The notes beneath the pieces were generated by a model. It was given only the letters and a program-made list of their open reading frames with translations, did no database searches and was not told where the DNA came from. 55,735 nucleotides of DNA, from NCBI RefSeq assembly GCF_001921215.1, contig NZ_MSIF01000041.1:1-55735 (forward strand), in the 5' to 3' direction. Numbering within the stretch: position 1 is the first letter of the stretch; each line of letters starts with the position of its first letter. Shown here piece after piece: positions 37,670-55,735 of the stretch. Source of the stretch: Actinophytocola xinjiangensis. GTDB lineage: Bacteria > Actinomycetota > Actinomycetes > Mycobacteriales > Pseudonocardiaceae. A program made the position numbers and the translations under genes.

Positions 37670-38943
<1,274 letters not shown>

Positions 38944-38947
<4 letters not shown>

Positions 38948-39372
38948 GGCAGGTCGTCCGGGCCGAAGGCGTGCGGCAGGACCTGACTCATCGGCAGCGG
39001 GCCGTCGGGGGTGTCGAGCAGGCAGTCCGGGCCGCCGAACTCGTAGATCACCTGCCGGCACCGGCCGCACGGCATCAGCAGCTCACCGTCGCCGCCCCGG
39101 CAGGCCACCGCGACCAGCCGGCCGCCGCCGGTCAGGCGCAGCTGGCCGACCATCGTGCACTCGGCGCACAGGCCAAGGCCGTAGGAGGCGTTCTCCACGT
39201 TGCAGCCGACCACCTGGCGGCCGTCGTCGACCACGGCGGCCGCGCCGACCCGCAGGCCGGAGTACGGGCAGTACGCCGAGGCCGCCGCGGTGACCGCCGC
39301 GGCGCGCAGTTCGTCCCAGTTCACGCTGTCGATCATCATGTCGATCATCATGTCGTCGCTAGTCACCCTCAC
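38944..39372 (-). CDS. cdd: Cytidine deaminase
   Basis: Zinc-dependent deamination of (deoxy)cytidine to (deoxy)uridine for DeoA. Up to 142 residues. Zinc-site motifs CAECT (catalytic Glu) and PCGRCRQV, plus CNVENASYG for substrate binding. The start is uncertain: GTG at 39372 or 39366 overlaps the end of the permease gene, and a 12-bp repeat offers ATGs at 39351 and 39339. The family core begins near DELRAAAV, so all give a full enzyme. Followed by deoA with a 4-bp overlap. Confidence 0.93.
39328..39351. repeat. Two 12-bp tandem repeats near the cdd start
   Basis: On the minus strand ATGATGATCGAC is repeated exactly twice and encodes MMIDMMID. Each unit carries two adjacent ATG codons in frame with cdd. 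Confidence 0.8.
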
Positions 39373-40636
39373 CTCGCCGGTAGGGCAGCCCGTCGGCCGC
39401 CGGTGGTCGCAGCCGTTGCGCGGCCAGTGCCAGCACCACCAGCGTGATGATGTGCGGGGTGTAGGGCAGGAACTCCCGGGGCAGCTCGTCGCTGACGTAG
39501 TACAGGACGTAGACCACGACCGCGCCGGCCGCCGCCAGCGCCGCGGTCATCCACTTGCGCCGGAACAGCTGCCAGACCACCAGCAGCCCCGCCGCGATCA
39601 CCGCCGCGTAGAGCAGCGAGTGCACCGTCCCCGGCCCGGAGGACAGCCGCAGGCCGTCGGCGTAGCCGAACAGGCCGGCGCCGGCGAGCGCACCACCGGG
39701 ACGCCAGTTGCCGAAGATCATCGCGGCCAGGCCGATGAAGCCCCGGTTCGCGGTCTGGCCCTCGGAGTAGATCGCCGGGTTCGAGCCGAGCACGAGCGCG
39801 GCACCACCGAGACCGGCGAACGCGCCGGAGGCGATCACCGCGACGTACTTGTGGAAGTACACGTTCACGCCCAGCGACTCGGCCGCGACCGGGTTCTCGC
39901 CGCAGGAGCGCAGCCGCAGCCCGAACCGGGTGTGCCAGAGCACCACGTAGGTCGCCACCACCAGCAGGATCGTGATCAGCAGCATCGGCGACACCTTGGT
40001 CACCAGGCCCTTGACCAGGCCGGCGACGTCGGAGATCACCACCCGCTGCTCGGCCTCCAACTCACCGAGCCAGTCGCTCAGGCCCGGCGCGGAGTAGGTG
40101 TCGAACTGCTCGATCGGCGGCGAGTCCCGGGGGTTGTGCGACAGCGGCTGGAACAGCAGCGTCGACAGGTACTTCGCGACCCCGAGCCCGAGCAGGTTGA
40201 TCGCCACGCCGGAGACGATGTGGTTGACGCCGAAGCTCACCGTGGCGATCGCGTGCAGCACGCCGCCCAGGGCACCGAACACCGCGCCGGAGAGCACCGC
40301 GACCCACGGGCCGCCCTGCAGGCCGCCCCAGGCCGCGCCCCAGGTGCCAAGGACCATCATGCCCTCAAGGCCGATGTTGATCATGCCCGAGCGTTCGGCC
40401 CAGATGCCGCCGATGGCGGCGAGCAGGATCGGTAAGCCCAGTGTCACCGTGTTCTGCATGGTCGACGAGGAGGTCAACCGGGGCTCGTCGGTGAGGTAGG
40501 AGGTGGTGGCGAGCACGCCGACCACCGCGACCACACCGAGCAGGAAGATCGCCCAGCCGGGCAGGGGCCGGCGCCGGGGCGCCGTGGGCATCGTCATGCC
40601 GGACGCGCCGCCCGGCTGCACCTCGACCATGCTCAT
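39359..40636 (-). CDS. Nucleoside ABC transporter permease 2
   Basis: 425 residues, about ten membrane segments, BPD_transp_2 family (as in BmpE/YufQ, RnsD). Motifs: GIWAERSGMINIGLEGMMVLG near residue 80 and LRSCGENPVAAESLGVNV in the cytosolic coupling loop. Pairs with the permease encoded just upstream (ATGA overlap). The context of a BMP lipoprotein, a two-domain ATPase and nucleoside catabolic enzymes supports nucleoside import. The C-terminus overlaps the possible cdd starts. Confidence 0.92.
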   Translation of the reverse strand: MSMVEVQPGGASGMTMPTAPRRRPLPGWAIFLLGVVAVVGVLATTSYLTDEPRLTSSSTMQNTVTLGLPILLAAIGGIWAERSGMINIGLEGMMVLGTWGAAWGGLQGGPWVAVLSGAVFGALGGVLHAIATVSFGVNHIVSGVAINLLGLGVAKYLSTLLFQPLSHNPRDSPPIEQFDTYSAPGLSDWLGELEAEQRVVISDVAGLVKGLVTKVSPMLLITILLVVATYVVLWHTRFGLRLRSCGENPVAAESLGVNVYFHKYVAVIASGAFAGLGGAALVLGSNPAIYSEGQTANRGFIGLAAMIFGNWRPGGALAGAGLFGYADGLRLSSGPGTVHSLLYAAVIAAGLLVVWQLFRRKWMTAALAAAGAVVVYVLYYVSDELPREFLPYTPHIITLVVLALAAQRLRPPAADGLPYRRGEGD

Positions 40637-41730
40637 TTCGCACTCCCCGAGTCCGCCGCGACCGGTTCCACGGTGCCCATCGCCCGGCCGACCCGCTGCT
40701 GCTCGGCCGCCCGGTCCATCCGCTTGACGATCTCGTAGGCCACGACCACCGAGAGCACGATCGCGCCCTGCATGATCGTCGCGATCTCGCGGGGCACACC
40801 GACGTTGTCCAGCGCGACCTTGGACTTGTCCAGGAACGCCCACAGCAGCGCGCCGAAGGCGATCCCCACCGGGTGGTTGCGGCCAAGCAGCGCGATGCCC
40901 AGACCGGCGAAGCCGTAGTTGGCGGGGAAGTTGAGGGTGTAGGCGTGGTCGCGGCCGAGGATCTCCGGCATGCCGACCAGGCCGGCGACCGCGCCGGAGG
41001 TCAGCAGCGCGATCATGATCATCTTCTTGGCGTTGACGCCACCCGCGGCGGCCGCGGTCGGCGACTCGCCGGAGGCCCGTAACTCGAACCCGAACCGGGT
41101 TCGGTGCAGCACCAGGCCGTAGACCGCCGCGGCGACCACCGCCAACAGCACCAGCCCGAAGATCTGCCCCCGGTCACCGAGATCGACGTTGGGCACCTGA
41201 CCGGACTCGGGGATCGGCTCGGTGGAGATGTTGTTGCCCACCAGCTCACCGAAGCGATCCTGGGAGATCAGGAAGGCCGCCAGGCCGAACGCGATCCCGT
41301 TCATCATGATCGTGGAGAGCACCTCGTGCACCCCGCGGGTCACCTTCAGCACCGCCGGGATCAGCGCCCACAGCGCGCCGGCCAGCATGGCGACCAACAG
41401 GATCACCAGCCAGTGCAACACCGGCGGCAACACCAGCCAACTGCCGACGATCGCCGCGACCAGCGCGCCGATCCGGTACTGGCCCTCGACCCCGATGTTC
41501 AACAGGTTCATCTGGAAGCCGATGGCCGCCGCCAGCGCGGCCAGCATGTAGATGGCCGTGCTGTTGACGATGTCGACCGCGACCTGGCCCTCACCGACCT
41601 GGCCGATCATCACGCCGAGCGCACTGGCGGGGTTGGACCCCGACACCAGCAGGGCTATCGCGCACAGCAGCGCGGAGAACCCGATCGCGAGCGCCGGCGC
41701 CAGCAGCGACGAACGCAGCTTGGCGGTCAA
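40633..41730 (-). CDS. Nucleoside ABC transporter permease 1
   Basis: 365 residues, BPD_transp_2 family (as in BmpD/YufP, RnsC). About eight to ten membrane segments, with FQMNLLNIGVEGQYRIGAL near residue 75 and the coupling loop ELRASGESPTAAAAGGVN. Starts with TTG at 41730, overlapping the ATPase stop as TTGA, with GGAGTGGAGAG as ribosome site. The next permease follows with a 4-bp overlap. Confidence 0.92.
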   Translation of the reverse strand: MTAKLRSSLLAPALAIGFSALLCAIALLVSGSNPASALGVMIGQVGEGQVAVDIVNSTAIYMLAALAAAIGFQMNLLNIGVEGQYRIGALVAAIVGSWLVLPPVLHWLVILLVAMLAGALWALIPAVLKVTRGVHEVLSTIMMNGIAFGLAAFLISQDRFGELVGNNISTEPIPESGQVPNVDLGDRGQIFGLVLLAVVAAAVYGLVLHRTRFGFELRASGESPTAAAAGGVNAKKMIMIALLTSGAVAGLVGMPEILGRDHAYTLNFPANYGFAGLGIALLGRNHPVGIAFGALLWAFLDKSKVALDNVGVPREIATIMQGAIVLSVVVAYEIVKRMDRAAEQQRVGRAMGTVEPVAADSGSAK

Positions 41731-43337
41731 CTCTCCACTCCTTCGTCAGTGCGGCCGTCGGCCTGATCGGCGGTGTCGTCGGCTGTGTGGTCGACCACGA
41801 GGTGACCCTCGTCGTCGGTCGCGCCGGCGCCGGTCATCGCCGAGCCGAGGTCCTCGGGGGTCACCGTCGCCGGGTCGGCGTCGGCGACGAACCGGCCCCG
41901 CAACATGACCTTGATCGAGTCGGACAGGCCGATCAGCTCGTCGAGGTCGGCGGAGACCAGCAGCACGGCCAGTCCCCTGGCCCGCGCGGCCCGGATCTGG
42001 TCCCAGATGGCGGCCTGGGCGCCGACGTCCACACCGCGGGTCGGGTGCGAGGCGATCAGCAGCAGCGGATCACCGGACAGCTCCCGGCCGATCACCAGCT
42101 TCTGCTGGTTGCCGCCGGACAGCGACCCGGCCGCGACCTCGATGCCGGGGGTACGGACGTCGAACTCATCCACGATGCGCCGGGTGTCCCGGCGCGCGCC
42201 GTCGACGTCGATCATCATGCCGCGCGCGGTCGGGCGGCGGGTCTGGTAGCCGAGGATCCGGTTGGCCCACAGCGGCTGCTGGAGCAGCAGGCCGTGACGG
42301 GTGCGGTCCTCGGGGATGTAGCCGATGCCGGCCTCGCGGCGCTTCTTCGTACCGACCCGGCTCAGGTCGGCGCCGTCGAGGTTGACCACCCCGGACGACG
42401 CCTTGCGCATGCCCATGATCGTCTCGACCAGTTCGGTCTGGCCGTTGCCCTCGACCCCGGCGATACCCAGGATCTCGCCGGCGCGGACCGACAGCTCCAG
42501 CGAGTCGAGCAGGACACGGTCGTCGGCGGTGCGCAGGGTCAGGTCCCGGACCCGCAGGATCTCCCGGTCCTGGACCGTCGAGGTGCGGGTCTGCGGGCTG
42601 GGCAGCTCGCTGCCGACCATCATCTCGGCGAGCTGACGGCTGGTCACCCTGCTGGGGTCGACCGTGCCGACGGTGGTGCCCCGGCGGATCACGGTCACCG
42701 TGTCGGCGATGGTCCGGACCTCGTCGAGCTTGTGGGAGATGAACAGGAAGGTGTAGCCGTCGGCGCGCATCGAGCGCAGCGTGCCGAACAGCTCGTCGAC
42801 CTCCTGCGGGACGAGCACGGCCGTCGGCTCGTCGAGGATGACGATCCGCGCCCCCCGGTACAGGACCTTGAGGATCTCGACCCGCTGCCGGTCGGCCACG
42901 CCGAGACGCTCGACCAGGGTGTCCGGGTCGACGTCCAGGCCGGTGGAGTCGGCCAGCTCACGCACCTTCGCCCTGGCCCGGCGGCCGATGCCGTGCAGCG
43001 CCTCGGCGCCGAGCACGACGTTCTCCAGCACGGTCAGGTTGTCGGCGAGCATGAAGTGCTGGTGCACCATGCCGATCCCGGCCTTGATCGCGTCGGCCGG
43101 CGACTTGAAGTGGATCTGTTCACCGTGCACCCTGATCGTGCCCTCGTCGGGGGTCTGCATCCCGTAGAGGATCTTCATCAGGGTCGACTTGCCGGCACCG
43201 TTCTCCCCGCACAGGGCGTGGACCTCGCCGGAGCGAACGGACAGGTGGACGTCGGAGTTGGCGACCACGCCTGGGAACCGTTTGGTTATGCCGGTCAACT
43301 CGACGGCCTGCGCGCTGGTTCGCGCGGTGTCGGACAT
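41727..43337 (-). CDS. Nucleoside ABC transporter ATPase (two nucleotide-binding domains)
   Basis: 536 residues, sugar/nucleoside-type double ATPase (YufO/RnsB class). The first domain has Walker A GENGAGKST, Q-loop MVHQHFML and Walker B VILDEPTAVL. The second has a degenerate Walker A (GVEGNGQTE), signature LSGGNQQKLVIGREL and a degenerate Walker B (LLIASHPTRGVD), as is normal for the family, in which one site is weak. The ATG at 43337 with GAAGGGCG upstream is chosen over the open extension, which would cross a strong hairpin. Acidic C-terminal tail. Confidence 0.93.
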   Translation of the reverse strand: MSDTARTSAQAVELTGITKRFPGVVANSDVHLSVRSGEVHALCGENGAGKSTLMKILYGMQTPDEGTIRVHGEQIHFKSPADAIKAGIGMVHQHFMLADNLTVLENVVLGAEALHGIGRRARAKVRELADSTGLDVDPDTLVERLGVADRQRVEILKVLYRGARIVILDEPTAVLVPQEVDELFGTLRSMRADGYTFLFISHKLDEVRTIADTVTVIRRGTTVGTVDPSRVTSRQLAEMMVGSELPSPQTRTSTVQDREILRVRDLTLRTADDRVLLDSLELSVRAGEILGIAGVEGNGQTELVETIMGMRKASSGVVNLDGADLSRVGTKKRREAGIGYIPEDRTRHGLLLQQPLWANRILGYQTRRPTARGMMIDVDGARRDTRRIVDEFDVRTPGIEVAAGSLSGGNQQKLVIGRELSGDPLLLIASHPTRGVDVGAQAAIWDQIRAARARGLAVLLVSADLDELIGLSDSIKVMLRGRFVADADPATVTPEDLGSAMTGAGATDDEGHLVVDHTADDTADQADGRTDEGVES

Positions 43338-43359
43338 CGGATGGCGCCCTTCTCTCACG

Positions 43360-43409
43360 TCAAATGCCCGTGGGTGTACGGCCGGTGCGCCGTACACCCA
43401 CGGGTTTGA
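43360..43409 (-). terminator. Strong hairpin between BMP lipoprotein and ATPase genes
   Basis: CCCGTGGGTGTACGGC (43367-43382) pairs perfectly with its complement (43389-43404) over a 6-nt loop, and TCAAA/TTTGA flanks extend the base of the stem. It lies in the 82-bp gap inside an operon. It probably acts as a partial terminator or a 3' stabiliser, so that more lipoprotein than membrane complex is made, a common pattern in binding-protein importers. Confidence 0.75.
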
Positions 43410-43419
43410 CGCCGATACC

Positions 43420-44580
43420 TCAGCTACCGGTCGGGGAGTCCTCGACCGTGACCTTGCCGTCGATGATCTGCTGCTTGTACGACTCGACCCACTCCTGGGT
43501 CTCGGCGTCGATCTTGCCGCCGGTGGTGGAGTAGCCGACGCCGTCGACCTTCAGGTCGAAGACCGGGGGAAGGCTGGCGAGGTCGTTGGCCGCGACCGCG
43601 GAGATGTAGTCGTACACCGCCACGTCGACCCGCTTGAGCATGGACGAGATGATCACGTCCTTGAACTCGGCGACCGTCTCCTGGTTGTACTGGTCGGAGT
43701 CGACACCGATGGCCATCACACCGGCCTCGTGGGCCGCGGCGAACACACCCTTGCCGGACGCGCCGGCGGCGTGGTAGATCACGTCGGCACCGCCGTCGAT
43801 CAGGCCCTTCGCGGTGACCTGGCCCTTGGGGGCGTCGGTGAACCCGGTCAGGTCGCCGGCCTCGGTGATGTAGCGCGACTCGATCGTGGCGTCCGGCGCG
43901 ACGGCCTTGACACCCTGCTCGAACCCGGCCTGGAACTTCTGGATCAGCGGGACGTTCACGCCGCCGACGAAGCCGATGTTGCAGCTCTCGCTCTTGAGCG
44001 CGGCGATGACGCCGACCAGGAAGGAGCCCTCGTGCTCGGCGAAGCCGAGGAACGTGACGTTCTCCGGAGCGCCCTCGGCGAAGCCGTCGACGACCGCGAA
44101 CTTGATGTTCGGGAACTGCTTGGCGACCGCGACCACGGCCTCGGAGTAGGCGAAGCCCACCGAGACGATCGGGTTGTGGCCCTCGGTGGCGAGCTGACGC
44201 AGGCGGGTCTGCTTGGCGTCCTCGCTCTCCTGGTCGGAGGCCGTGAGCTCCTTGGTGTTCTCCTTCTTCACGCCCAGTTGGGCGATCGCCTCGTCGAGCC
44301 CGGCCGCGGCCGAGTCGTTGAACGACGCATCGCCCCGGCCGCCGATGTCGAAGGCCAGGCCGACCTTGAGCTTGCTGCCGTCGACGTCGGCCGCCGTCTC
44401 GGTCGTGCTGGTCTTACCCTCGGCTGCTGCCGGCTTGTCCACGGTCTGACAACCGGCCGCGGCACCGTTCTGGTTGCCGGACCCGTTGTCCGAGGATGCG
44501 GAATCCTTCGCACACCCAACCACGGACAGCACGCTGGTCAAAGCGATCGCGGTGACCGCGACTCCCCGCTTGAAGCGCAA
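43420..44580 (-). CDS. BMP-family nucleoside-binding lipoprotein
   Basis: 386 residues. Lipoprotein signal with VVGC lipobox (Cys near residue 22), a Ser/Gly/Asn-rich linker, then a BMP/PnrA-type binding fold: VGLAFDIGGRGDASFNDSAA (in part), NIGFVGGVNVPLIQKFQAGFEQG, DVIYHAAGASGKGVFAAA. PnrA-like proteins bind purine and pyrimidine nucleosides. The TTG at 44580 with GGGAGGGAG upstream fits; extension to 44898 does not. First gene of the operon that ends in cdd-deoA. Confidence 0.92.
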   Translation of the reverse strand: MRFKRGVAVTAIALTSVLSVVGCAKDSASSDNGSGNQNGAAAGCQTVDKPAAAEGKTSTTETAADVDGSKLKVGLAFDIGGRGDASFNDSAAAGLDEAIAQLGVKKENTKELTASDQESEDAKQTRLRQLATEGHNPIVSVGFAYSEAVVAVAKQFPNIKFAVVDGFAEGAPENVTFLGFAEHEGSFLVGVIAALKSESCNIGFVGGVNVPLIQKFQAGFEQGVKAVAPDATIESRYITEAGDLTGFTDAPKGQVTAKGLIDGGADVIYHAAGASGKGVFAAAHEAGVMAIGVDSDQYNQETVAEFKDVIISSMLKRVDVAVYDYISAVAANDLASLPPVFDLKVDGVGYSTTGGKIDAETQEWVESYKQQIIDGKVTVEDSPTGS

Positions 44581-46736: not shown

Positions 46737-47087
46737 TCACGTCCAGAAGACGGCCAGGCCGACGTTGAGCACGACCAGCCCACCCAGAACCGGGTTGAGC
46801 CACGACGGGGCCGGCTTCTTCTTGAGCGTGTAGGTCAGGGCCAGGCCGCCGATCACGAGCAGCACCAACATCTTGATGCCCAGCTTCATGTGGTTGTACT
46901 CGGTGTCGGTGGTCGGGGCCAACAGTTGCAGTGCCAGACCGGTCACCAGTTGCAGGCCGGCGCCGTGCAGCCAGCCGGCGTTGAGCTGCCCGCCGGCGGG
47001 CACCCGGCGCTGCACCAGGAACGAACCGATCAGCACGGCCATACCGAGCAGATGGAGGAACACCAACAACAGCCGCACGAACTCCAC
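46737..47087 (-). CDS. Four-helix membrane protein, unknown
   Basis: 116 residues with four hydrophobic segments (about 5-25, 43-58, 67-86, 96-114) and short loops. His residues in helix 1 (VFLHLLGMAVLIG) and in NAGWLHGAG and NHMKLGIK recall small haem- or copper-related integral membrane proteins, but this is only a resemblance. AGGAGAC ribosome site before the ATG. It is not part of the ebo operon, which ends beyond it at 47174. Confidence 0.75.
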   Translation of the reverse strand: MEFVRLLLVFLHLLGMAVLIGSFLVQRRVPAGGQLNAGWLHGAGLQLVTGLALQLLAPTTDTEYNHMKLGIKMLVLLVIGGLALTYTLKKKPAPSWLNPVLGGLVVLNVGLAVFWT

Positions 47088-47173: not shown

Positions 47174-48580
47174 TCAGCTGCCGGCGGGGCGGTCGAGGAA
47201 CTTGCCGCGTGCCTGCGCGTAGCGCTCGCGCAGGCCCGGGGTCGGTTTCCCGGTCACCTCGTCGACGGCACCCAGCCGCCAGCGGGGTGGGCTGTCGGTG
47301 CCGGTCAGTGCCCAGGCCGCCTGGCGGGCGGCGCCGTCGGCGACGTACTCGCCGGGTTCGGGGACGACCACCGGGCGGCCCAGGACCAGCGGGGCCACCT
47401 GGCGCACCGCCGCCGACCTGGCGCCGCCGCCGACCAGCAGGATCCGGTCGGCGCGGCAGCCCTGGGCGACCAGCGCGTCCATCGCGTCGGCCAGGCCGCA
47501 GAGCACGCCCTCGACGGCGGCCCTCGCCTGGTGGGCGGGGGTGGCGTTGGCCAGGCGCAGGCCGTGCAGCGCACCGGTGGCGGTGGGCAGGTTCGGGGTC
47601 CGTTCACCCTCCAGGTACGGGACCAGGACCAGGCCGTCGGCACCGGGCGGGGCGGACAGGGCCAGCTCGGCGAACGTGTCCTGGTCGACGCCGATCATCC
47701 TGGCGACCGCGTCCAGGACCCGGGCGGCGTTGAGGGTGCAGACCAGCGGCAGGTACCGGCCGGACGCGTCGGCGAAACCGGCGACCAGGCCGGAGGCGTC
47801 GGCGCTTGGCTTGTCGGCCACGGCGAACACCGTGCCGGACGTGCCGATGGACACCACGACGTCGCCGGGTTCGGCGCCGACGCCGAGAGCGGCGGCCATG
47901 TTGTCGCCGGTGCCCGCGCCCACCAGGGCACCGGAGGCCAGGCGGCCGGCGGTGTCCGACGGGCCGAGCACGGTCGGCAGGCCGGGTACCCGGCCCAGGG
48001 CCAGTTCGAGCAGGTCGGGCCGGTAGCGGCCGGTCGCCGGGGAGAAGTACCCGGTGCCGGAGGCGTCGCCACGGTCGGTGGTCAGCGTGGTGATGTCGCC
48101 GGTGCCGCGCAGCTTCCACGTCAGGTAGTCGTGCGGCAGGCACACGGCGGCGGTGGCGGCGGCCGAGTCCGGCTCGTGCTCGGCCAGCCAGCGCAGCTTG
48201 GTCACGGTCACCGACGCGACCGGGACCACACCGACCGCGTCGGCCCACGCCGCCGCGCCGCCCAGTTCGTCGATCAGGGCGGTGGCGGCGGGGGCCGAGC
48301 GGGTGTCGTTCCACAGCAGGGCGGGGCGGACCACCTCCCCGGTGTCCGACAGGCACACCATCCCGTGCTGTTGGCCGGCGACCGAGACGGCGGCGACGTC
48401 GTCGACGCCGCCGGCCCGCTCGATCGCGACCTCCAGTGCCTCCCACCACGCCGTGGGGTCCACCTCGGTCCCCTCGGGGTGCCGGGCGGATCCGCTGCGC
48501 ACCAGCGCACCGGACTCCGCGTCTCGCACCACCACCTTGCAGGACTGGGTCGACGAGTCGACCCCGGCCACCAGCGGCAT
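47174..48580 (-). CDS. xylB: Xylulokinase-like FGGY carbohydrate kinase
   Basis: 468 residues. FGGY fold: [11 protein letters not shown] (about 8-18), GQQHGMVCL (near 70, typical of xylulokinases), [23 protein letters not shown]-type C-terminal nucleotide site ([15 protein letters not shown]). It phosphorylates a ketose or polyol. D-xylulose is the best guess, although the setting behind TIM-barrel isomerases in an ebo operon allows another sugar. It starts 50 bp after the preceding gene and is the last gene of the operon in the window. Confidence 0.87.
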
Positions 48581-48630
48581 GGTCCCCAACCTCCGAACGA
48601 CAGACAGGCTCCGAGCAACGAACCGAGAAA

Positions 48631-49491
48631 CTAGAACCGCACTCCGACGAGATAGTCGTAACCCGTCTTCGCGCACCTGAGCGCGTCGACCGGCTCGTCG
48701 TTCTCGACGATGTACTCGTCGACCTCCAACGGCCAGTTCGACCGGAAGATGCGGGGGAAGTCGATGTTCCCCTCGCCCAGGTCGGCGAAACCGCCGTCGG
48801 GGGCGCGGTCCTTCACGTGGTACTGCCTGACCCGGCCGGCCACCTTGTAGAACTCGCCGACCGGGTCGCCGCCACCGACCACCACCCAGTACAGGTCCAT
48901 CTCCAGGCTGACGTTGCGCCGCGAGGTCCCGCGCACCAGCACGTCCCACGGCCGCACGCCGTCGATCCTGGCGAACTCGTGGGCGTGGTTGTGGTAGCCG
49001 AACCCGATCCCGGCGCGCCGGTAGAGCTTGCCGGCCGCGTCCAGGCGACCGGCGAACTCCCGCCACTCGGCCAGCGTCGGGTAGCTCGCCCAGGCCACGT
49101 TGCTGCGGCGGTTGCCGAGGATCTTCGCGTCGGCGATGGCCTGGTCGAGGTCACCGTCGATGCCGACGTGGGTCGAACTCGCCCGCAGGTGGTAGCGGTC
49201 GAGAATGGCGCGGAACTCGGTGGCGCTGCGGCCGTAGGTGCCGGCCAGCTCGACCTTGCGGTAGCCGATGTCGGCCAGCGCGGAGAGCGTGCCCTCCAGG
49301 TCGGTCTCCAGGACCGAACGCAGCGTGTAGAGCTGGATGCTGATCTTGTCCTTGGGTACCCGCCGCGACCACGGCCGGCCGCCGCCGCGCTCACCGGTCG
49401 CGCTCGCGGTGCCGGGTAACGCCGCGGCCGCACCGGCCGCCACGGCACCGGCCGCCGCGCCGCGCAACATCGTCCTTCTGGAGAGAGCCAT
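48631..49491 (-). CDS. Tat-exported TIM-barrel sugar isomerase/epimerase
   Basis: 286 residues. Twin-arginine signal SRRTMLRG (about 4-11) with an Ala-rich hydrophobic core and cleavage region near ASA, then an AP-endonuclease-2-type TIM barrel: [56 protein letters not shown]. The His/Glu/Asp set suggests a divalent-metal isomerase. Folded export through Tat means the reaction takes place outside the membrane, unlike the cytosolic TIM protein encoded 49 bp upstream. Both follow ebo genes. Confidence 0.88.
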
Positions 49492-49540
49492 GACGAATCC
49501 CTTCGTTGGAACCTGTCGGAATCAGTCCCCCGGTGCCCCG

Positions 49541-50545
49541 TCAGTCCTTGGTGGAGAAGGCGGCGTCGAACGCCGCGGTCGGCTTGTCGAAGATCAGGTT
49601 GCGGATGAACGTCACCGCCTCCTCGGCCCCCCGCAGCCGGTCCATGCCGGCGTCCTCCCACTCCACCGAGATCGGGCCGGTGTAGCCGATCGCGTTGAGC
49701 GCGCGGAACGACTCCTCCCACGGCACGTCACCGTGGCCGGTGGACACGAAGTCCCAGCCGCGCCTCGGGTCGGCCCACGCCAGGTGGCTGCCGAGCCGGC
49801 CGTTGCGGCCGTCGAAGCGCTTCTTCGTGTCCTTGCAGTCCACGTGGTAGATGCGGTCGGCGAAGTCCAGGATGAACCCGACCGGGTCGAGGTCCTGCCA
49901 CACGAAGTGCGACGGGTCCCAGTTCAGGCCGAACGCCGGCCGGTTGTCCACCGCCTCCAGGGTCCGTTTGGTCGTCCAGTAGTCGTAGGCGATCTCCGAC
50001 GGGTGCACCTCGTGCGCGAACCGCACCCCGACCTCGTCGAACACGTCCAGGATCGGGTTCCACCGGCGGGCGAAGTCGGCGTAGCCGTCGTCGATGACCT
50101 CCTGGGACACCGGCGGGAACATCGCCACGTACTTCCAGATCTTCGAGCCGGTGAACCCGACGACGGTGTTCACCCCGAGCTTGGCCGCCGCGCGGGCGGT
50201 GTCGGCCAGTTCGGCCGCGGCGCGCTGGCGCACGCCCTCGGGTTCCCCGTCGCCCCAGATGCGGGCCGGCAGGATGTTGCGGTGCCGCTCGTCGATCGGG
50301 TCGTCGCAGATCGCCTGGCCGACGAGGTGGTTGGAGATGGTCCACACCTTCAGGCCGTGCGACTCCAACTGCGCGAGCTTGTTGGCCACGTAGTCGTCCT
50401 CGGCCAGTGCCCGGTCCACCTCGAAGTGGTCGCCGGAGCAGGCGATCTCCAGCCCGTCGTAACCCCACTGCGCGGCGAGCTTGCACACCTCCTCGAACGG
50501 GAGGTCGGCCCACTGGCCGGTGAACAGGGTGACTGGTCGACTCAT
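49541..50545 (-). CDS. TIM-barrel sugar isomerase/epimerase (cytosolic)
   Basis: 334 residues, AP-endonuclease-2/IolE-like barrel. Metal ligands are apparent in [53 protein letters not shown] and [15 protein letters not shown] at 50545 preceded by AAGGAG and overlapping the EboF stop (ATGA), so translation is tied to the ebo genes. Probably interconverts a ketose, inositol-like or oxo-sugar compound. The specific substrate is unknown. Confidence 0.88.
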
Positions 50546-51948
50546 CGTCGAACTCCTTCCGGTACGCCAATTCCTTGCAGTCGCAACAACAGGTCGTGTA
50601 CCTCGGTCGCGCCGAGGGCTCCGCCGGGTTCGGCGTCGGGCACCGAACACAGCAGCACCGGCCCGTCCTCCGGCCGGTCGGGCAACCGTCCGTGCGAGCC
50701 CCGCACGCAGGTCGGGTCGAGTGGCACCACGCTCATCGCGTAGCGCAGGCCGGCCTTCTTGCGCACCAGGTTCAGCCCGGCCTTGGCCTTGGCCAACCTG
50801 TCGGCCGGGTCGAAGAACAGCTCGGCCGGGTCGTAGCCGGGCTTGCGGTGGATCTCCACGCCGCGTGCGAAGTCCGGTGCGCGGTCGTCATCGAGCCAGT
50901 AGTAGTAGGTGAACCACGCGTCGGGCTCGGCGGTGACCACGAGCTCGCCCGAGCGCGGGTGGTCGATGCCGTACTTCGCCTGCTCCTCGCGGCCGAGCAC
51001 CTCGTCGACGCCGGTCAGCTCGCCGAGCAGTTCGCGCACCCTGGGCAGGTCCTGGGAGTCGTTGACGTACACGTGCGCGACCTGGTGGTCGGCCACCGCG
51101 AACGCCCGCGACGTCCACGGGTCCAGGTACTCCATGCCGGCCTGGGTGTAGACCTCCAGCAGTCCCTCGGTGCGCAGCAGGCGGTTGATGTCGACCGGGC
51201 GGCGCACCGGCGTGATGCCGTACTCGGAGAGCGCGACGACGGTGGCGCCGGCGTTCTGCGCGTCGGCCAGCAGCGGGCCGAGCGCGGCGTCGACCTCGCG
51301 GGCGGCCTGCGCGGCCTGCGGGGCGTCCGGGCCGAAGCGTTGCAGGTCGTAGTCCAGGTGCGGGACGTAGACCATGACCAGGTCGGGGTGGTGTTCGGCG
51401 AGCACCTTGCGGGCCGCGCCGATGATCCACTCGCTGGACCGCAGCGCGGCGGTGGGCCCCCAGTACTGGAACAGCGGGAACTCGCCGAGCGCGCCGACCA
51501 GCTCGTCGTGCAGGGCCGGCGGACGCACGTAGGCGTCGGGCGACTTGCGGCCGTCGGCGTGGTAGATCGGCCGGGGGGTGACCGTGATGTCGGTACTGGC
51601 GCCCATGGCGTACCACCAGCAGACGTTGGCCGCGGTGTAGCCGGGCACCCGCGCCCGCGCGGCCTCCCAGACCTTGTCCCCTTCCACCAGCCGGTTGTGC
51701 TGGCGCCACAGGTGGATCTCGCCGACGTCGCGGAAGTACCAGCCGTTGCCGACGATCCCGTGGCTGGCCGGCATCGCGCCGGTCAGGAACGTCGACTGGG
51801 CACTGCAGGTCACCGCCGGCAGCACGGTGCCCAGTTCGGCCTGCCAGCCCCGGTGGGCCAGCGCGGACAGGTTGGGCATGTACCGCAACAGTTTCGGCGT
51901 CAGTCCCACGACGTCGAGCAGCACCAGCCGGGTGGTCGACACGGTCAC
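50542..51948 (-). CDS. EboF-like alkaline phosphatase superfamily protein
   Basis: 468 residues, nucleotide pyrophosphatase/phosphodiesterase fold. First metal Asp in [10 protein letters not shown], catalytic Ser/Thr region [25 protein letters not shown] (in part), then [13 protein letters not shown] with further metal ligands and SEYGI, where many relatives have DHG. No signal peptide, so it acts in the cytosol. It is the fifth consecutive gene matching the ebo set. The GTG start overlaps the EboE stop (GTGA). The substrate is unknown. Confidence 0.82.
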
Positions 51949-53081
51949 CGGACCCCTCCCTCCTGGCCGAGCAGCTGGGCGGCGGCCCAACGCAGCTCGG
52001 CGGCGATGCCGCGGATCAGGGCGGTGTCCCCACCGTTGCCCGCGGTCTCTGGCAGCACACTCCAGGTGTAGGTCTCCACCTCGATGTGCGGCAATTCCTC
52101 CACAGTGGACTCCAGGGCCGCCACCGCGCCCCGCAGGACGTCGGTGGTCGCCGACAGCGGGGCGGCCGGGCGGGCGTGCAGCGGCACGTGGAAGTGCACC
52201 CGCCAGGCGCGCTGGGCCGGCAGCTCGGCCAGGGCCTGGGGCAGGTCGTCGGAGCCGAGGACCGCGCCGTCGCCGGTGCGCTCGCGCACCTGGTGCAGGT
52301 AGCGCGGCTCGGTGAAGTCGGCCAGCGCCGCCTGCGCCGCCTCGCTGGCCGGCTCCTCGACCTGCAACGCCGCCGAGGCCTGCACCTTCACCACCGACAG
52401 CCCGGCCCGGTGGATCGCGGCGACGGTCTCGGCCGGGTCGGCGAAGGACACCGCCAGGTGGCAGGTGTCCAGGCAGAGTCCGACGAACCGCGGGTCGACC
52501 CGGTTCGCCAGCCAGCTCACCGCGTCGGCCACGGTGTCCAGCACGCAGCCCGGCTCCGGCTCGACGGCCAACCGGATCGGCCGCCCGTCCCGCCGCGCCA
52601 TCCCCGCCAGCACACCGGTCAGCTCGGCGAACGCCGAGGTGGCGGCCGTGTCGTCGGCGCCGTCCCACGGGGCGCGCCAGGCCAGCGGCAGGGTCGAGAT
52701 GCTGCCGTAGCTCGCGGTGTCGGGCAGCAGGTCGGCCAGCACGGTCGCACAGTCCACCGTGTACTCGAGACGTCGGGGATCGGTCCACTGCGGACGGTAC
52801 ACCGAGTGCTTGACCACGTCGTCGTGGAAGCCGCCGTAGGGGAAGGCGTTGAGCGTGTACACCTCCAGGCCGCGCGCGTCCAGCTCGGCGCGCAGCCGGG
52901 CCCGCAGCGCCGGGTCGCCGGCCAGCTCACCGGCCAGCCCCGCCGGCAGCCACAGCCCGAGCCCGAGCACGTCGACCCCGACCAGCCGGCGCACCGGCTC
53001 GGCGTAGCGGTCCAGCTGCGCCAGCACACCCGGCAGGTCCTCCGCCGGGTGCACGTTGGTGCAGTAGGACAGTGGGGTCAC
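51945..53081 (-). CDS. EboE-like metabolite traffic protein (TIM barrel)
   Basis: 378 residues. Starts SYCTNVHPAEDLPGVLAQLD, the recognisable opening of EboE proteins, followed by LWLPAGLAGEL, YTLNAFPYGGFH, LAVEPEPGC, CLDTCHLAVSF and FHVPLHA. The xylose-isomerase-like barrel carries putative metal residues, but no reaction has been shown for the family as far as I know. GTG start overlapping the EboB stop (GTGA) and GTGA into EboF. Confidence 0.85.
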   Translation of the reverse strand: MTPLSYCTNVHPAEDLPGVLAQLDRYAEPVRRLVGVDVLGLGLWLPAGLAGELAGDPALRARLRAELDARGLEVYTLNAFPYGGFHDDVVKHSVYRPQWTDPRRLEYTVDCATVLADLLPDTASYGSISTLPLAWRAPWDGADDTAATSAFAELTGVLAGMARRDGRPIRLAVEPEPGCVLDTVADAVSWLANRVDPRFVGLCLDTCHLAVSFADPAETVAAIHRAGLSVVKVQASAALQVEEPASEAAQAALADFTEPRYLHQVRERTGDGAVLGSDDLPQALAELPAQRAWRVHFHVPLHARPAAPLSATTDVLRGAVAALESTVEELPHIEVETYTWSVLPETAGNGGDTALIRGIAAELRWAAAQLLGQEGGVR

Positions 53082-53941
53082 GCGCCACCGCCGCGCAGCA
53101 CCGAGTTGCCGGCGAAGGTGTCGGTGGACGCGGTGAACCCGGGCAGCTCGTCGAGCACCAGCCGATCGCTCTGGCCGTAGAACTCGACCGGGTTCTGCCA
53201 CAGCACCTTGTCCACATCGGACTCGTCGAAGCCGGCCTCCAGCATGGCCAGGCCGGTCTTGTACGTCTTGAGCGGGTCCGAGCGGCCCCAGTCGGCGGCG
53301 GAGTTGACGATCATCCGGTCGGTGCCGTACTCGCGGAGGATGGCGACCATCCGCTGCTCGTCCATCTTGGTGTCCGGGTAGATCGAGAAACCCATCCAGC
53401 AGCCGGAGTCGGCGACCACCGCGACCGTCGGCTCGTTGAGGTGGTCGACCAGCACCCGTCCGGGGGCCAGGCCCGACTCGCGCACCACGTCGACCGTGCG
53501 CCGGGTGCCGGCGAGCTTGTCCCGGTGCGGGGTGTGCACCAGCGCCGGCAGCTCGTGCTCGACGGCCATCGCCAGCTGGGCGGCCAGGACCTCGTCCTCC
53601 TCGGGGGTCATCGAGTCGTAGCCGACCTCGCCGACGGCGACCACGCCGTCCTTGGCGAGGTAGCGGGGCAGCACGTCGAGCACCTCGCGGCAGCGGGGGT
53701 CGTTGGCCTCCTTGGGGTTGAGCGCGATGGTGCAGTGGTGGCGGATGCCGAACTGCGCGGCCCGGAACCGCTCCCAGCCGATGAGGCTGTCGAAGTAGTC
53801 GGTGAACGAGGCGACGCTGGTCCGCGGCTGCCCCAGCCAGAACGCCGGCTCGACCAGCGCGCGGACGCCGACGGAGTACATGGCCTCGTAGTCGTCGGTG
53901 GTCCGCGAGGTCATGTGGATGTGCGGGTCGAAGATCCTCAC
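53078..53941 (-). CDS. EboB-like TatD-family metal hydrolase
   Basis: 287 residues. Amidohydrolase/TatD metal site is complete: FDPHIHM (H-x-H), VGEVGYDS (Glu), LVHTPHR (His), VDHLNE (His), NSAADWG (Asp). TatD proteins are nucleases or amidohydrolases, and EboB is the ebo-cluster branch with unknown substrate. GTG start overlaps the previous stop (GTGA). Its stop overlaps the EboE start. Confidence 0.85.
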   Translation of the reverse strand: MRIFDPHIHMTSRTTDDYEAMYSVGVRALVEPAFWLGQPRTSVASFTDYFDSLIGWERFRAAQFGIRHHCTIALNPKEANDPRCREVLDVLPRYLAKDGVVAVGEVGYDSMTPEEDEVLAAQLAMAVEHELPALVHTPHRDKLAGTRRTVDVVRESGLAPGRVLVDHLNEPTVAVVADSGCWMGFSIYPDTKMDEQRMVAILREYGTDRMIVNSAADWGRSDPLKTYKTGLAMLEAGFDESDVDKVLWQNPVEFYGQSDRLVLDELPGFTASTDTFAGNSVLRGGGA

Positions 53942-55410
53942 GAGCGAACCTCCAGCAGTCGTTCCGCGTCGGCCGGAACGTCCCGGCCGGCGGCGCGCCG
54001 TTCGTCGGCATAGTCGGAGACCATGCGCCGCAGCTCGGCGTCGGCACGCCGGTCGAGGTCGGCGACCGCGGCCAGCGGCACGCCGACGAACAGGCACTTG
54101 AGCACGCCGTGGCGCCAGGCGTGCGCGTCGAGGTGCCGGGCGCCGAAGGCGCCCATGGCGGCGGCGACCAGCCGGATGTCGTTGGCACGCAACGCGTCCC
54201 GCACGATCTCCAGCCCGGTACCGGCGACCTCCTCTGGCAGCGCCCCGAGCCCGCGCAGCACCCCCCGGCGTTCGGCGTCGTCGCCGTAGCGGTACAGCTG
54301 GGCGATCTCGGTGGTCAGCGCCTCACCGGCGAGGACCCCGGCCAGCACGGTGAGCAGCCGGGTGCGGGCGAGGTCGTCGACGGTGCCGTGCACCAGACCC
54401 TGCGGGTCGGACTCGGGACGCAGCGGCGCCCGGCCGACCTTGCGCCCGACGGCGGGGAACAACGTCGCGATCGCGGCCGGGTCGGCCCGCACCCGGTCCT
54501 CGGCGTCGACCAGCCAGGGATGATCCACCTGTGTCACCCACTCCACCTCGCCTTCCACAGTTCGGGGCGCCCGGTCGGGCACCATCGCCGCGCGCAGCGC
54601 GCTGATCGCCGTGGCGGCGACGTCGGGCGCCGCGTGGCTGTGCCGGGGAAGCTCGACCGCCGCGACACCGGTGTAGCCGACCTCGTCGAGCGCGGCCAGG
54701 GTCGCGGCGAGGTCCAGGTCACCTTCGCCGAACTCCAGGTGCTCGTGCACCCCGGGGCGCATGTCGTCGAGCTGCACGTTGACCAGCAGGCCGGCGGCTT
54801 CCCGCACACACGCCGGCGCGTCCTGGGGTTCGACGGCCACGCAGTGCCCGACGTCCAGGGTGATGCCGAGCAGCTCGGGTTCGCCGAGGTCGGCGCGCAG
54901 GTGCAGCGCGTCGGCCAGCCGCTCGACGAACATCCCCGGCTCCGGTTCGAGTCCCAGCCGGACGCCGAGCGGGGTGGCCTCGTCGAGCACGGTCGACACC
55001 CCGGTGCGCATCCGCCGCCACGCCAGCTCCGGGTTCACCGACGAGGGCCGGATCCCCGACCAGAAGGACACGCAGTCCGCGTCCAGCTCGGCGGCGATGC
55101 GCACCGCGCGGCGCAGGAAGTCGATCCGGGCGGCGGGTTCGTCGCACACCAGCGTCGGGTGGTGCTTGCGGCTGGGGTCGAGCAGGTAGCGGGCGCCGGT
55201 CTCGACCACGCAGCGCAGCCCGAGCCGGGCGAGCAGCCGCGCGACCCGGTCGGTCTCGGCGAGCACGTCGTCGTCGTAGGGGTCGAGGTGGTGGTGGTCG
55301 AGGGTGAGCGCGACGGCCGTGTAGCCGAGGTCGGCGATCAGCCGGAGCGCGTCGTCGAGGCGGTGGTTGGCGAACCCGTTGGTCCCGTACCCGAGGTGGA
55401 AGGCGCTCAT
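53938..55410 (-). CDS. Fusion of TIM-barrel isomerase and EboA domain
   Basis: 490 residues. Residues 1 to about 285 are an AP-endonuclease-2-type barrel (LGYGTNGFANHRLDDALRL, LEPEPGMFVERL, LGITLDVGHCVAVE, VQLDDMRPGVHEHLEFGEGD in part). From about 320 an all-helical EboA domain follows (IATLFPAVGRKVGRAPLR, QLYRYGDDAERRGVLRGL, DIRLVAAAMGAFGARHLD, HGVLKCLFVGVPL). Reading continues without a stop or shift. ATG overlaps the EboC stop (ATGA) and its own stop overlaps EboB (GTGA). EboA function is unknown. The fusion would tie it physically to an isomerase. Confidence 0.85.
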   Translation of the reverse strand: MSAFHLGYGTNGFANHRLDDALRLIADLGYTAVALTLDHHHLDPYDDDVLAETDRVARLLARLGLRCVVETGARYLLDPSRKHHPTLVCDEPAARIDFLRRAVRIAAELDADCVSFWSGIRPSSVNPELAWRRMRTGVSTVLDEATPLGVRLGLEPEPGMFVERLADALHLRADLGEPELLGITLDVGHCVAVEPQDAPACVREAAGLLVNVQLDDMRPGVHEHLEFGEGDLDLAATLAALDEVGYTGVAAVELPRHSHAAPDVAATAISALRAAMVPDRAPRTVEGEVEWVTQVDHPWLVDAEDRVRADPAAIATLFPAVGRKVGRAPLRPESDPQGLVHGTVDDLARTRLLTVLAGVLAGEALTTEIAQLYRYGDDAERRGVLRGLGALPEEVAGTGLEIVRDALRANDIRLVAAAMGAFGARHLDAHAWRHGVLKCLFVGVPLAAVADLDRRADAELRRMVSDYADERRAAGRDVPADAERLLEVRS

Positions 55411-55735
55411 GTCGGGCTCACCTTCCGTGACAGCCGGCGGGCCAGCGGCAGCGCGGCGACCACCGCGAGCGCGCCCAGCAGCGAGCCCCGGCGCGCGGCC
55501 AGTGCCGCCTGCAACGGCACCATGCCGTGGATCCCGGCCATGGTGGCGCGCCGGACGGTGTCGGCCGACGGGTCGTCGCGGGCGGCGAGCTGCGCGCGCC
55601 CGACGGTCGCCGAGTACAGCGCCCCGGCGGTGAGCGCGCCGAGCCGGTGGCGCCCGGAGTGGGCGTGGCCGCCGACCGCCGCGACGCTGGCCGCCGCCGT
55701 GGCGGCGAGCGCGGTCGCGGCCGAGGCGGGCGACC
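55407..55735 (-). CDS. EboC/UbiA-type prenyltransferase, C-terminal part
   Basis: The last 109 codons of a gene that enters from beyond the right edge. I translated it by hand on the minus strand: a stretch of Ala/Val-rich membrane helix, then TVRRATMAGIHGMVPLQA, LLGALAVVAALPLARR and a terminal LSRKVSPT. The GIHGMVPLQAALAAR-type ending is that of the UbiA-like EboC proteins. The TGA overlaps the ATG of the TIM-EboA gene (ATGA). The isoprenoid-binding DxxxD motifs would lie outside the window. Confidence 0.7.
   Translation of the reverse strand, partial: SPASAATALAATAAASVAAVGGHAHSGRHRLGALTAGALYSATVGRAQLAARDDPSADTVRRATMAGIHGMVPLQAALAARRGSLLGALAVVAALPLARRLSRKVSPT

Follow-up and report, generated by a model that had tools for sequence, protein, structure and literature searches.

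What takes the place of the cyclase EboD in the ebo-type cluster at the right end of contig NZ_MSIF01000041.1 of Actinophytocola xinjiangensis, and what might such a cluster make? The stretch analyzed here (the window) is the entire contig, 55,735 bases, and its end cuts the gene of the membrane enzyme EboC. The original prediction, made from the sequence alone, read an ebo-like operon joined to sugar enzymes and placed EboD just beyond that edge. We found the gene order Ino1-EboC-TIM1.EboA-EboB-EboE-EboF, of which the window holds the 3' part; EboD is replaced by a gene of the Ino1 family, and this replacement is conserved.

The canonical operon eboA-F (Yurchenko et al. 2016, PMC5133447; Klicki et al. 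2018, PMC6282210) is alike in the EboA domain, the TatD-like EboB, the UbiA-like EboC, EboE, EboF, and the tight packing of the genes. It is unlike the present cluster in that here Ino1 replaces EboD, EboC is of the SCO3242 type, and an extra TIM barrel (TIM1) is fused to EboA. The TIM-EboA fusion was already reported for Actinobacteria in 2016 (PMC5133447), in whose text the word "inositol" does not occur, and we found no description of the Ino1-for-EboD swap in the open-licence literature. Adjacent genes of the Streptomyces coelicolor CDA region, SCO3242 and SCO3243, are tagged "putative transferase" and "myo-inositol phosphate synthase" (PMC3610822), a pair known here from the published gene names alone; NCBIfam names this EboC type after SCO3242.

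An Ino1-family gene in the place of EboD

To find the part missing from the window, we searched with the EboC of Actinophytocola gossypii (locus L041) and the gene upstream of it. The EboC N terminus (residues 1 to 157; 87% to L041) lies on a second contig of this genome, at its end (C28:69779-70249), and directly before it there is an Ino1-family gene of 462 residues (L123:18065-19453), with a 7-bp overlap with the likely EboC start. From the split of EboC across both, we infer that contigs C28 and C36 adjoin, with about 20 EboC residues missing. Looking there for the rest of EboC and for EboD, as had been proposed, thus recovered the former, with Ino1 instead of the latter. EboD just past the right edge is rejected, since the neighbor in the same genome is of the Ino1 family and is followed by the start of EboC; a search of this genome for EboD-like proteins gave a single partial match, of 34%, which is probably AroB.

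The cluster Ino1 has both Pfam domains of the family (NAD_binding_5, 179 bits; Inos-1-P_synth, 102 bits). Its orthologue in L041 aligns over its full length with the archaeal-type Ino1 of A. fulgidus (1u1i, 216 bits) and keeps four lysines (1u1i 274, 278, 306, and 367, counted from the alignment), which we take to be the catalytic lysines; across 64 cluster Ino1 proteins, these positions are at least 97% conserved. The difference from the archaeal enzyme is that the cluster protein sits in an ebo cluster, and its activity is predicted. The NCBIfam mycothiol_INO1 model gave only 23.2 bits versus a cut-off of 638, 6k96 is a distant match, and a second Ino1 homologue in the window's genome is a different gene (29% identity). 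At its C terminus, the L123 protein extends into a low-complexity tail (about 70 residues) not found in L041.

Spread of the Ino1-type cluster

The Ino1-type ebo cluster is a real and widespread variant, the usual one in Actinomycetota. Two sets of loci were examined. The named loci come from a scan of species genomes in which the best 80 of 100 relatives were kept (79 named), and they were counted in a search by the TIM-EboA protein. Presence or absence was scored from hidden Markov model (HMM) matches on stop-to-stop open reading frames (ORFs), gene calls by codon score being weak (EboC fragments such as c41). The INO1 and other HMMs were seeded from the named loci, and those for EboD and classical EboC from seven plasmid loci; therefore, only the second set, a survey chosen by EboE, is an independent count. 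Of 394 Actinomycetes genomes, 98 had an EboE match, which was over the cut-off in 90; of 396 phylum-wide genomes, 19 had one (18 over), 12 of these 19 being shared with the Actinomycetes set. The 100 survey stretches are 92 of the 94 over-cut-off Actinomycetes places, G353 (below the cut-off), and seven new phylum-wide genomes; the set leaves out the window and G038 and includes G685, which is below the EboE cut-off. Haloferax volcanii, a control genome, gave an EboE match below the cut-off.

INO1 was present at 86 of the 100 survey loci, EboD at one, both at none, and neither at 13; a cyclase gene was found in 87 of the 94 loci that have a second ebo gene. The sole canonical EboD-type cluster of the survey is L210, in Actinomycetota genome G776. 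Among the 13 loci with neither cyclase, 6 are EboE alone, that is, EboE-like genes with no other ebo gene within about 9 kb (L169, L199, L202, L220, L222, and L223), and 3 stop at a contig end, INO1 being near the end of another contig in those genomes. Another two are second copies, INO1 being at the other ebo locus of the genome, and the last two (L183 and L208) have Ino1 elsewhere in the genome (42 to 44%). Other genomes tested for an apparently absent INO1 had a homologue in seven of seven cases (42 to 58%). TIM1 as an absolute partner of Ino1 is rejected, because L128, L131, L154, and L160 carry Ino1 without it.

With a model seeded from the same loci, INO1 was found in the fetched stretch of 65 of the 79 named loci. 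The remaining 14 comprise 4 stretches that start less than 600 bp from the TIM gene (L040, L058, L116, and L117), 2 stand-alone TIM1 genes outside ebo, and 8 loci of the Lentzea type (7 Lentzea and Nocardia sp. L083). A loss of Ino1 in Lentzea is rejected, since all eight genomes retain an orthologue elsewhere (71 to 72%); contig numbering and coordinates suggest that in five of them it lies 22 to 23 kb upstream on the same strand. The stand-alone genes are two Streptomyces TIM1 barrels (L093:10001-10822 and L098:10001-10831; 77 to 78% identity) with no other ebo gene in the fetched flanks. The comparison of gene order in related genomes suggested by the original prediction showed it to be conserved, with EboF in 76 of the 79 named TIM-EboA loci; hence, the order is not due to chance.

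A match was also found in 48 plasmid records, from which 10 loci were scored, with 30 other records outside the counts. Seven of the 10 are EboD-type, none of them actinobacterial (the same seven that seeded the EboD model), and three are INO1-type, from two Streptomyces plasmids and one Gemmatirosa plasmid. Further Streptomyces plasmid regions include four that are INO1-type by annotation and one with EboE alone; three unannotated ones were left out of the typing.

Cluster proteins and their likely product

Every gene of the original list lies on the minus strand where the reading of the sequence had placed it, and the run of five 4-bp overlaps was borne out exactly: ATGA (55410-55407), GTGA (53941-53938), GTGA (53081-53078), GTGA (51948-51945), and ATGA (50545-50542). 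After these junctions, the spacing is 49, 50, and 86 bp. The C-terminal 108 residues of EboC (55407..55735) had no match in a Pfam search; their best model is NF045897, "SCO3242 family prenyltransferase", with 89 bits across the fragment, which makes this EboC a putative UbiA-family prenyltransferase. The full EboC of L041 scores 381.3 with NF045897 (cut-off, 260) and 156 with the EboC model NF035940, under its cut-off of 250. NF035940 is strict, since a Deinococcus EboC from an EboD-type cluster is also under the cut-off (96.3).

The TIM1-EboA fusion (53938..55410, 490 residues) matched PF01261 (126.6 bits) and NF035938 (163.1; cut-off, 50), and EboE (51945..53081) matched NF035939 (436.2; cut-off, 250), both ebo models far over cut-off, so that the call of an ebo-type cluster with a UbiA-family enzyme held. 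AF2 models of the fusion predict an epimerase-type TIM barrel at residues ~1 to 275 and an all-helical EboA domain at ~298 to 487; in other actinobacteria, these are separate genes. TIM1 residues E155, D186, H189, H222, H224, and E253 are invariant (33 rows). The 50 rows listed by Foldseek for the fusion model are TIM-barrel proteins, and the EboA-alone model had no significant Foldseek match. For EboE, phmmer against the PDB at E 0.1 found no relative. EboB (53078..53941), a TatD-family metal hydrolase (PF01026, 45.4 bits; cut-off, 27) whose conservation was taken from a 77-row alignment, has 3guw (AF_1765) as its only PDB relative by sequence. The orthology of EboB and EboF comes from synteny and trees, no model specific to either having matched in an NCBIfam-type search.

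EboF (50542..51948) belongs to the alkaline-phosphatase superfamily (PF01663, 219 bits; cut-off, 23) and has an altered metal site. Columns were matched through an alignment to phosphonoacetate hydrolase 3szy and to the nucleotide pyrophosphatase/phosphodiesterase (NPP) 2gsn; at the positions that we take to be the metal ligands, EboF reads V/T/D/Q/E/Y/H versus D/T/D/H/D/H/H in these relatives. The first is V in 194 of 195 rows and A in one, Q, E, and Y occupy the three other changed positions in all 195, and T and D are kept in 195 and H in 193 (two gaps). EboF is thus without the canonical two-metal ligand set of the NPPs, and this conserved noncanonical site makes it unsafe to name EboF a phosphodiesterase.

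Our preferred reading, in which we have slightly better than even confidence, is that the Ino1-type ebo cluster makes a prenylated inositol-derived membrane lipid and is located inside a glycoside-catabolic operon. Ino1 would convert glucose 6-phosphate to inositol 1-phosphate, and the membrane enzyme EboC would attach a polyprenyl group to the cyclitol, either as such or as its phosphate or a derivative. Remodeling of the ring would fall to the TatD-type EboB and the metal TIM barrels (TIM1 and EboE), EboA would be a helical-repeat, perhaps HEAT-like, scaffold, and EboF would perform a noncanonical step or serve in binding. The product would be a prenylated cyclitol lipid of the membrane for the movement or chemistry of small molecules at its outer face. 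The latter role is suggested by the export phenotype of Nostoc, in which the scytonemin monomer stays cytoplasmic in every ebo knockout studied (eboD was not studied) and a lipid carrier has been proposed (PMC6282210); ebo genes are also needed for nematode resistance in a Pseudomonas (PMC6282210). EboD, proposed as a cyclitol maker (PMC5133447), and Ino1 would be alternative ring makers, of a C7 cyclitol and of inositol, respectively, for one shared downstream machine. The cyclase swap is a concrete clue that ebo clusters join an isoprenoid tail to a ring of sugar origin; as the swap is to an enzyme family of known chemistry, "some cyclitol" becomes a named candidate, inositol. Of the sugar- or cyclitol-containing prenylated molecule originally suggested, the cyclitol head group is what the cyclase family points to, while the sugar branch appears to be a catabolic module.

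If EboC acts on the cyclitol, its type might be expected to follow that of the cyclase. Trees were built from hand-picked rows labeled by cyclase type (40 each for EboF and EboE, 38 each for EboC and EboB). In the EboC tree, the cyclase type changes once (support 91/77, unstarred; 90% of the bootstrap trees), with a long-branch warning for L226. In the EboF tree, the minimum forced by starred branches is two changes, owing to the Ino1-type cluster of Gemmatirosa, whose EboF is of the EboD lineage. Starred branches also force at least two in the EboB tree, the best tree needing three; Gemmatirosa EboB groups with Deinococcus (74% identity), and one starred set of 13 rows mixes 8 EboD-type and 5 Ino1-type. 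The EboE tree needs two changes, of which starred branches force only one. The prenyltransferase therefore seems to go with the cyclase: on thin evidence (one clear switch), EboC type follows cyclase type, and EboB and EboF do not. The switch is that of the Gemmatirosa kalamazoonensis plasmid (L228:10-14837), where Ino1, TIM1, and EboC stand beside EboF and EboB of the EboD lineage, and its direction is as expected if EboC has a cyclitol acceptor. The plasmid also has TIM2, Gfo, and TatTIM-like genes (described below) nearby.

Several points weigh against the inositol lipid. No Ino1-type ebo protein has, to our knowledge, an established product, substrate, or activity, and UbiA enzymes usually use aromatic acceptors. 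Ino1-like proteins can make other cyclitol phosphates, as in the distant match 6k96. The argument that EboC follows the cyclase leans mainly on one out-of-group case, Gemmatirosa, whose EboC scores 142 versus 124 bits for the two types, and on a tree of hand-picked rows with unstarred support and the warning for L226. Four of the 86 INO1 survey loci (L128, L131, L154, and L160) have no TIM1 beside it, and L183 and L208 are without both. Finally, quinolines were what the single EboC relative with an assay farnesylated, with no inositol acceptor among the results consulted (PMC9235831).

Carbohydrate genes around the core and rival readings

The core is followed by TIM2 (49541..50545; PF01261), a TIM barrel close to S. 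coelicolor SCO6571 (2zds, 577 bits) and related to the 2-hydroxy-3-keto-glucal hydratase 8ro4 (149 bits). Next is TatTIM (48631..49491; PF01261, 47 bits), related to 8tcd/8tcs (106.8 bits for 8tcd) and to the O-glycoside beta-eliminase AtOGE (8bvk, 88.9 bits). By alignment to 8bvk, TatTIM keeps H132, H134, D163, H189, and E233 of AtOGE, comprising the His/Asp/His/Glu metal set and the catalytic His named in PMC10628242. TatTIM and TIM2 resemble, respectively, the eliminase and the hydratase of the Agrobacterium 3-keto-glycoside beta-elimination pathway (AtOGE and AtHYD; PMC10628242), and a Gfo/Idh/MocA gene is also present; unlike that pathway, the actinobacterial eliminase-like protein has a twin-arginine-like (Tat-like) signal, judged by eye. 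The run continues with the xylulokinase XylB, an FGGY kinase (47174..48580; TIGR01312, 414.2 bits; cut-off, 380.25), in the same position in the window and four Actinophytocola loci (cluster 33 in 5 of 80 loci). Beside it, a small membrane-type ORF of 116 residues (46737..47087, minus strand) is kept (cluster c36 in 4 of 80 loci); a Pfam search of it gave no match.

Upstream on C28, in the same direction, there are ROK regulators, an ABC ATPase, a permease, a sugar-binding protein, a Gfo/Idh/MocA oxidoreductase, and a XylA-type gene, whose L041 orthologue passes the XylA cut-off (637 versus 447 bits). A giant protein of 1,524 residues has ThuA, GSDH, PKD, CBM6, and 3-keto-disaccharide hydrolase domains; its GSDH domain is a candidate for the 3-oxidizing enzyme of the 3-keto-glycoside module. 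Farther left in the window (37670-44442, minus strand), a lipoprotein-like binding protein and an ABC ATPase look by eye like a nucleoside-type importer, the ATPase resembling that of a relative's sugar importer at 39%.

Near ebo (~9 to 10 kb), the 93 survey loci with EboF have TIM2 in 31, TatTIM-like genes in 39, GSDH-type in 45, and 3-keto-disaccharide hydrolase in 37; in the 76 named loci with EboF, the counts are 41, 36, 39, and 25. XylA is near ebo in 5 of the 76 named loci and in none of the 93 survey loci, and a polyprenyl synthase in 10 of 76 and 8 of 93. One polyprenyl synthase in Lentzea (L075:2214-3191), about 7 kb upstream of TIM1, is related to a family 2 encapsulin cargo (below the model cut-off). 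TIM2 (E < 1e-100) was found in 44 of 148 Actinomycetes genomes, mostly as a single copy, 29 with and 15 without an over-cut-off EboE (that of G094 is truncated and below the cut-off). In 20 of the 29, the two genes are at most 9.5 kb apart, against a chance expectation of about 0.1, estimated from genome length. The link is therefore real, and each module also occurs alone, so the sugar module need not feed the ebo product. The enzymes first taken as a carbohydrate branch joined to the ebo core (TIM2, TatTIM, and XylB) are better explained, together with the XylA-type gene upstream, as a 3-keto-glycoside and xylose catabolic module. The refuting observation named in the original prediction, flanking genes of a plain sugar-catabolic operon, is thus half borne out: the flanks are catabolic, and the core is ebo.

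One could go further and consider the whole stretch a glycoside-catabolic operon, with no lipid product and with imported 3-keto sugars as the substrates of the ebo-like enzymes. The importer, Gfo/Idh/MocA, the ThuA/GSDH giant, the eliminase- and hydratase-like barrels, XylA, and XylB do surround the core, and the closeness of TIM2 and EboE in those 20 genomes agrees with it. However, the Ino1-C-A-B-E-F core occurs without sugar genes in Catellatospora, a Streptomyces, and a Dactylosporangium (by cluster labels) and in Streptomyces plasmids (by annotation), 15 of the 44 TIM2 genomes have no EboE over the cut-off, and a catabolic operon has no evident need for a prenyltransferase and de novo Ino1, all of which make this quite improbable to us. 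We take more seriously, while still thinking it unlikely, that the acceptor of EboC is an aromatic compound (quinoline- or naphthol-like) formed elsewhere, as for Ubi-297, and that Ino1 has an accessory function, for instance to supply inositol. Farnesylation of 8-hydroxyquinoline-2-carboxylic acid was reported for Ubi-297 and for two homologues encoded in Bacteroidetes ebo clusters, but in an assay that offered chosen acceptors, of which 6 of 14 were used and phenols and catechols were not (PMC9235831); moreover, the cyclase gene in 87 of 94 survey loci and the pairing of EboC type with cyclase type would be left unexplained. Since EboA, EboB, EboE, and EboF are common to canonical clusters, the product could also be the same C7 cyclitol compound, with EboD supplied in trans. 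Considering the lone partial EboD-like match in the window's genome and the presence of Ino1 without EboD in 86 of 100 survey loci, we give this very little credence.

A bolder extension of the prenylated cyclitol lipid, speculative and with low odds in our judgment, is that the ebo product is a redox or carrier lipid of a new isoprenoid kind, its head group coming from a sugar-derived cyclitol and not from shikimate, and that it serves oxidizing proteins outside the cytoplasm. The ring from EboD (C7) or Ino1 (C6) would be dehydrated or aromatized by the TIM barrels and EboB and then prenylated by EboC. If true, this would explain the frequent beta-propeller proteins beside ebo, whose export is predicted; the GSDH-type domains counted above (45 of 93 survey and 39 of 76 named loci) are among these neighbors, and they are treated separately from ScyE, no homology between the two having been shown. 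Proteins of the ScyD/ScyE family are members of cyanobacterial scytonemin clusters, and in Streptomyces plasmids they are found directly upstream of Ino1-type ebo (L227:1927-3126, L234:3185-4387, and L235:2990-4189). In cyanobacteria, scyD-F are beside ebo (PMC5133447). As a general neighbor, the family is a weak candidate, with phmmer matches in 2 of the 93 survey loci and in none of the 76 named loci, versus 3 of 6 annotated Streptomyces plasmid Ino1 regions. On one of these Streptomyces plasmids, a PLSDB tet(W/32/O) call (L234:15433-15756) sits exactly on the gene of a 2Fe-2S protein and is probably a mislabel.

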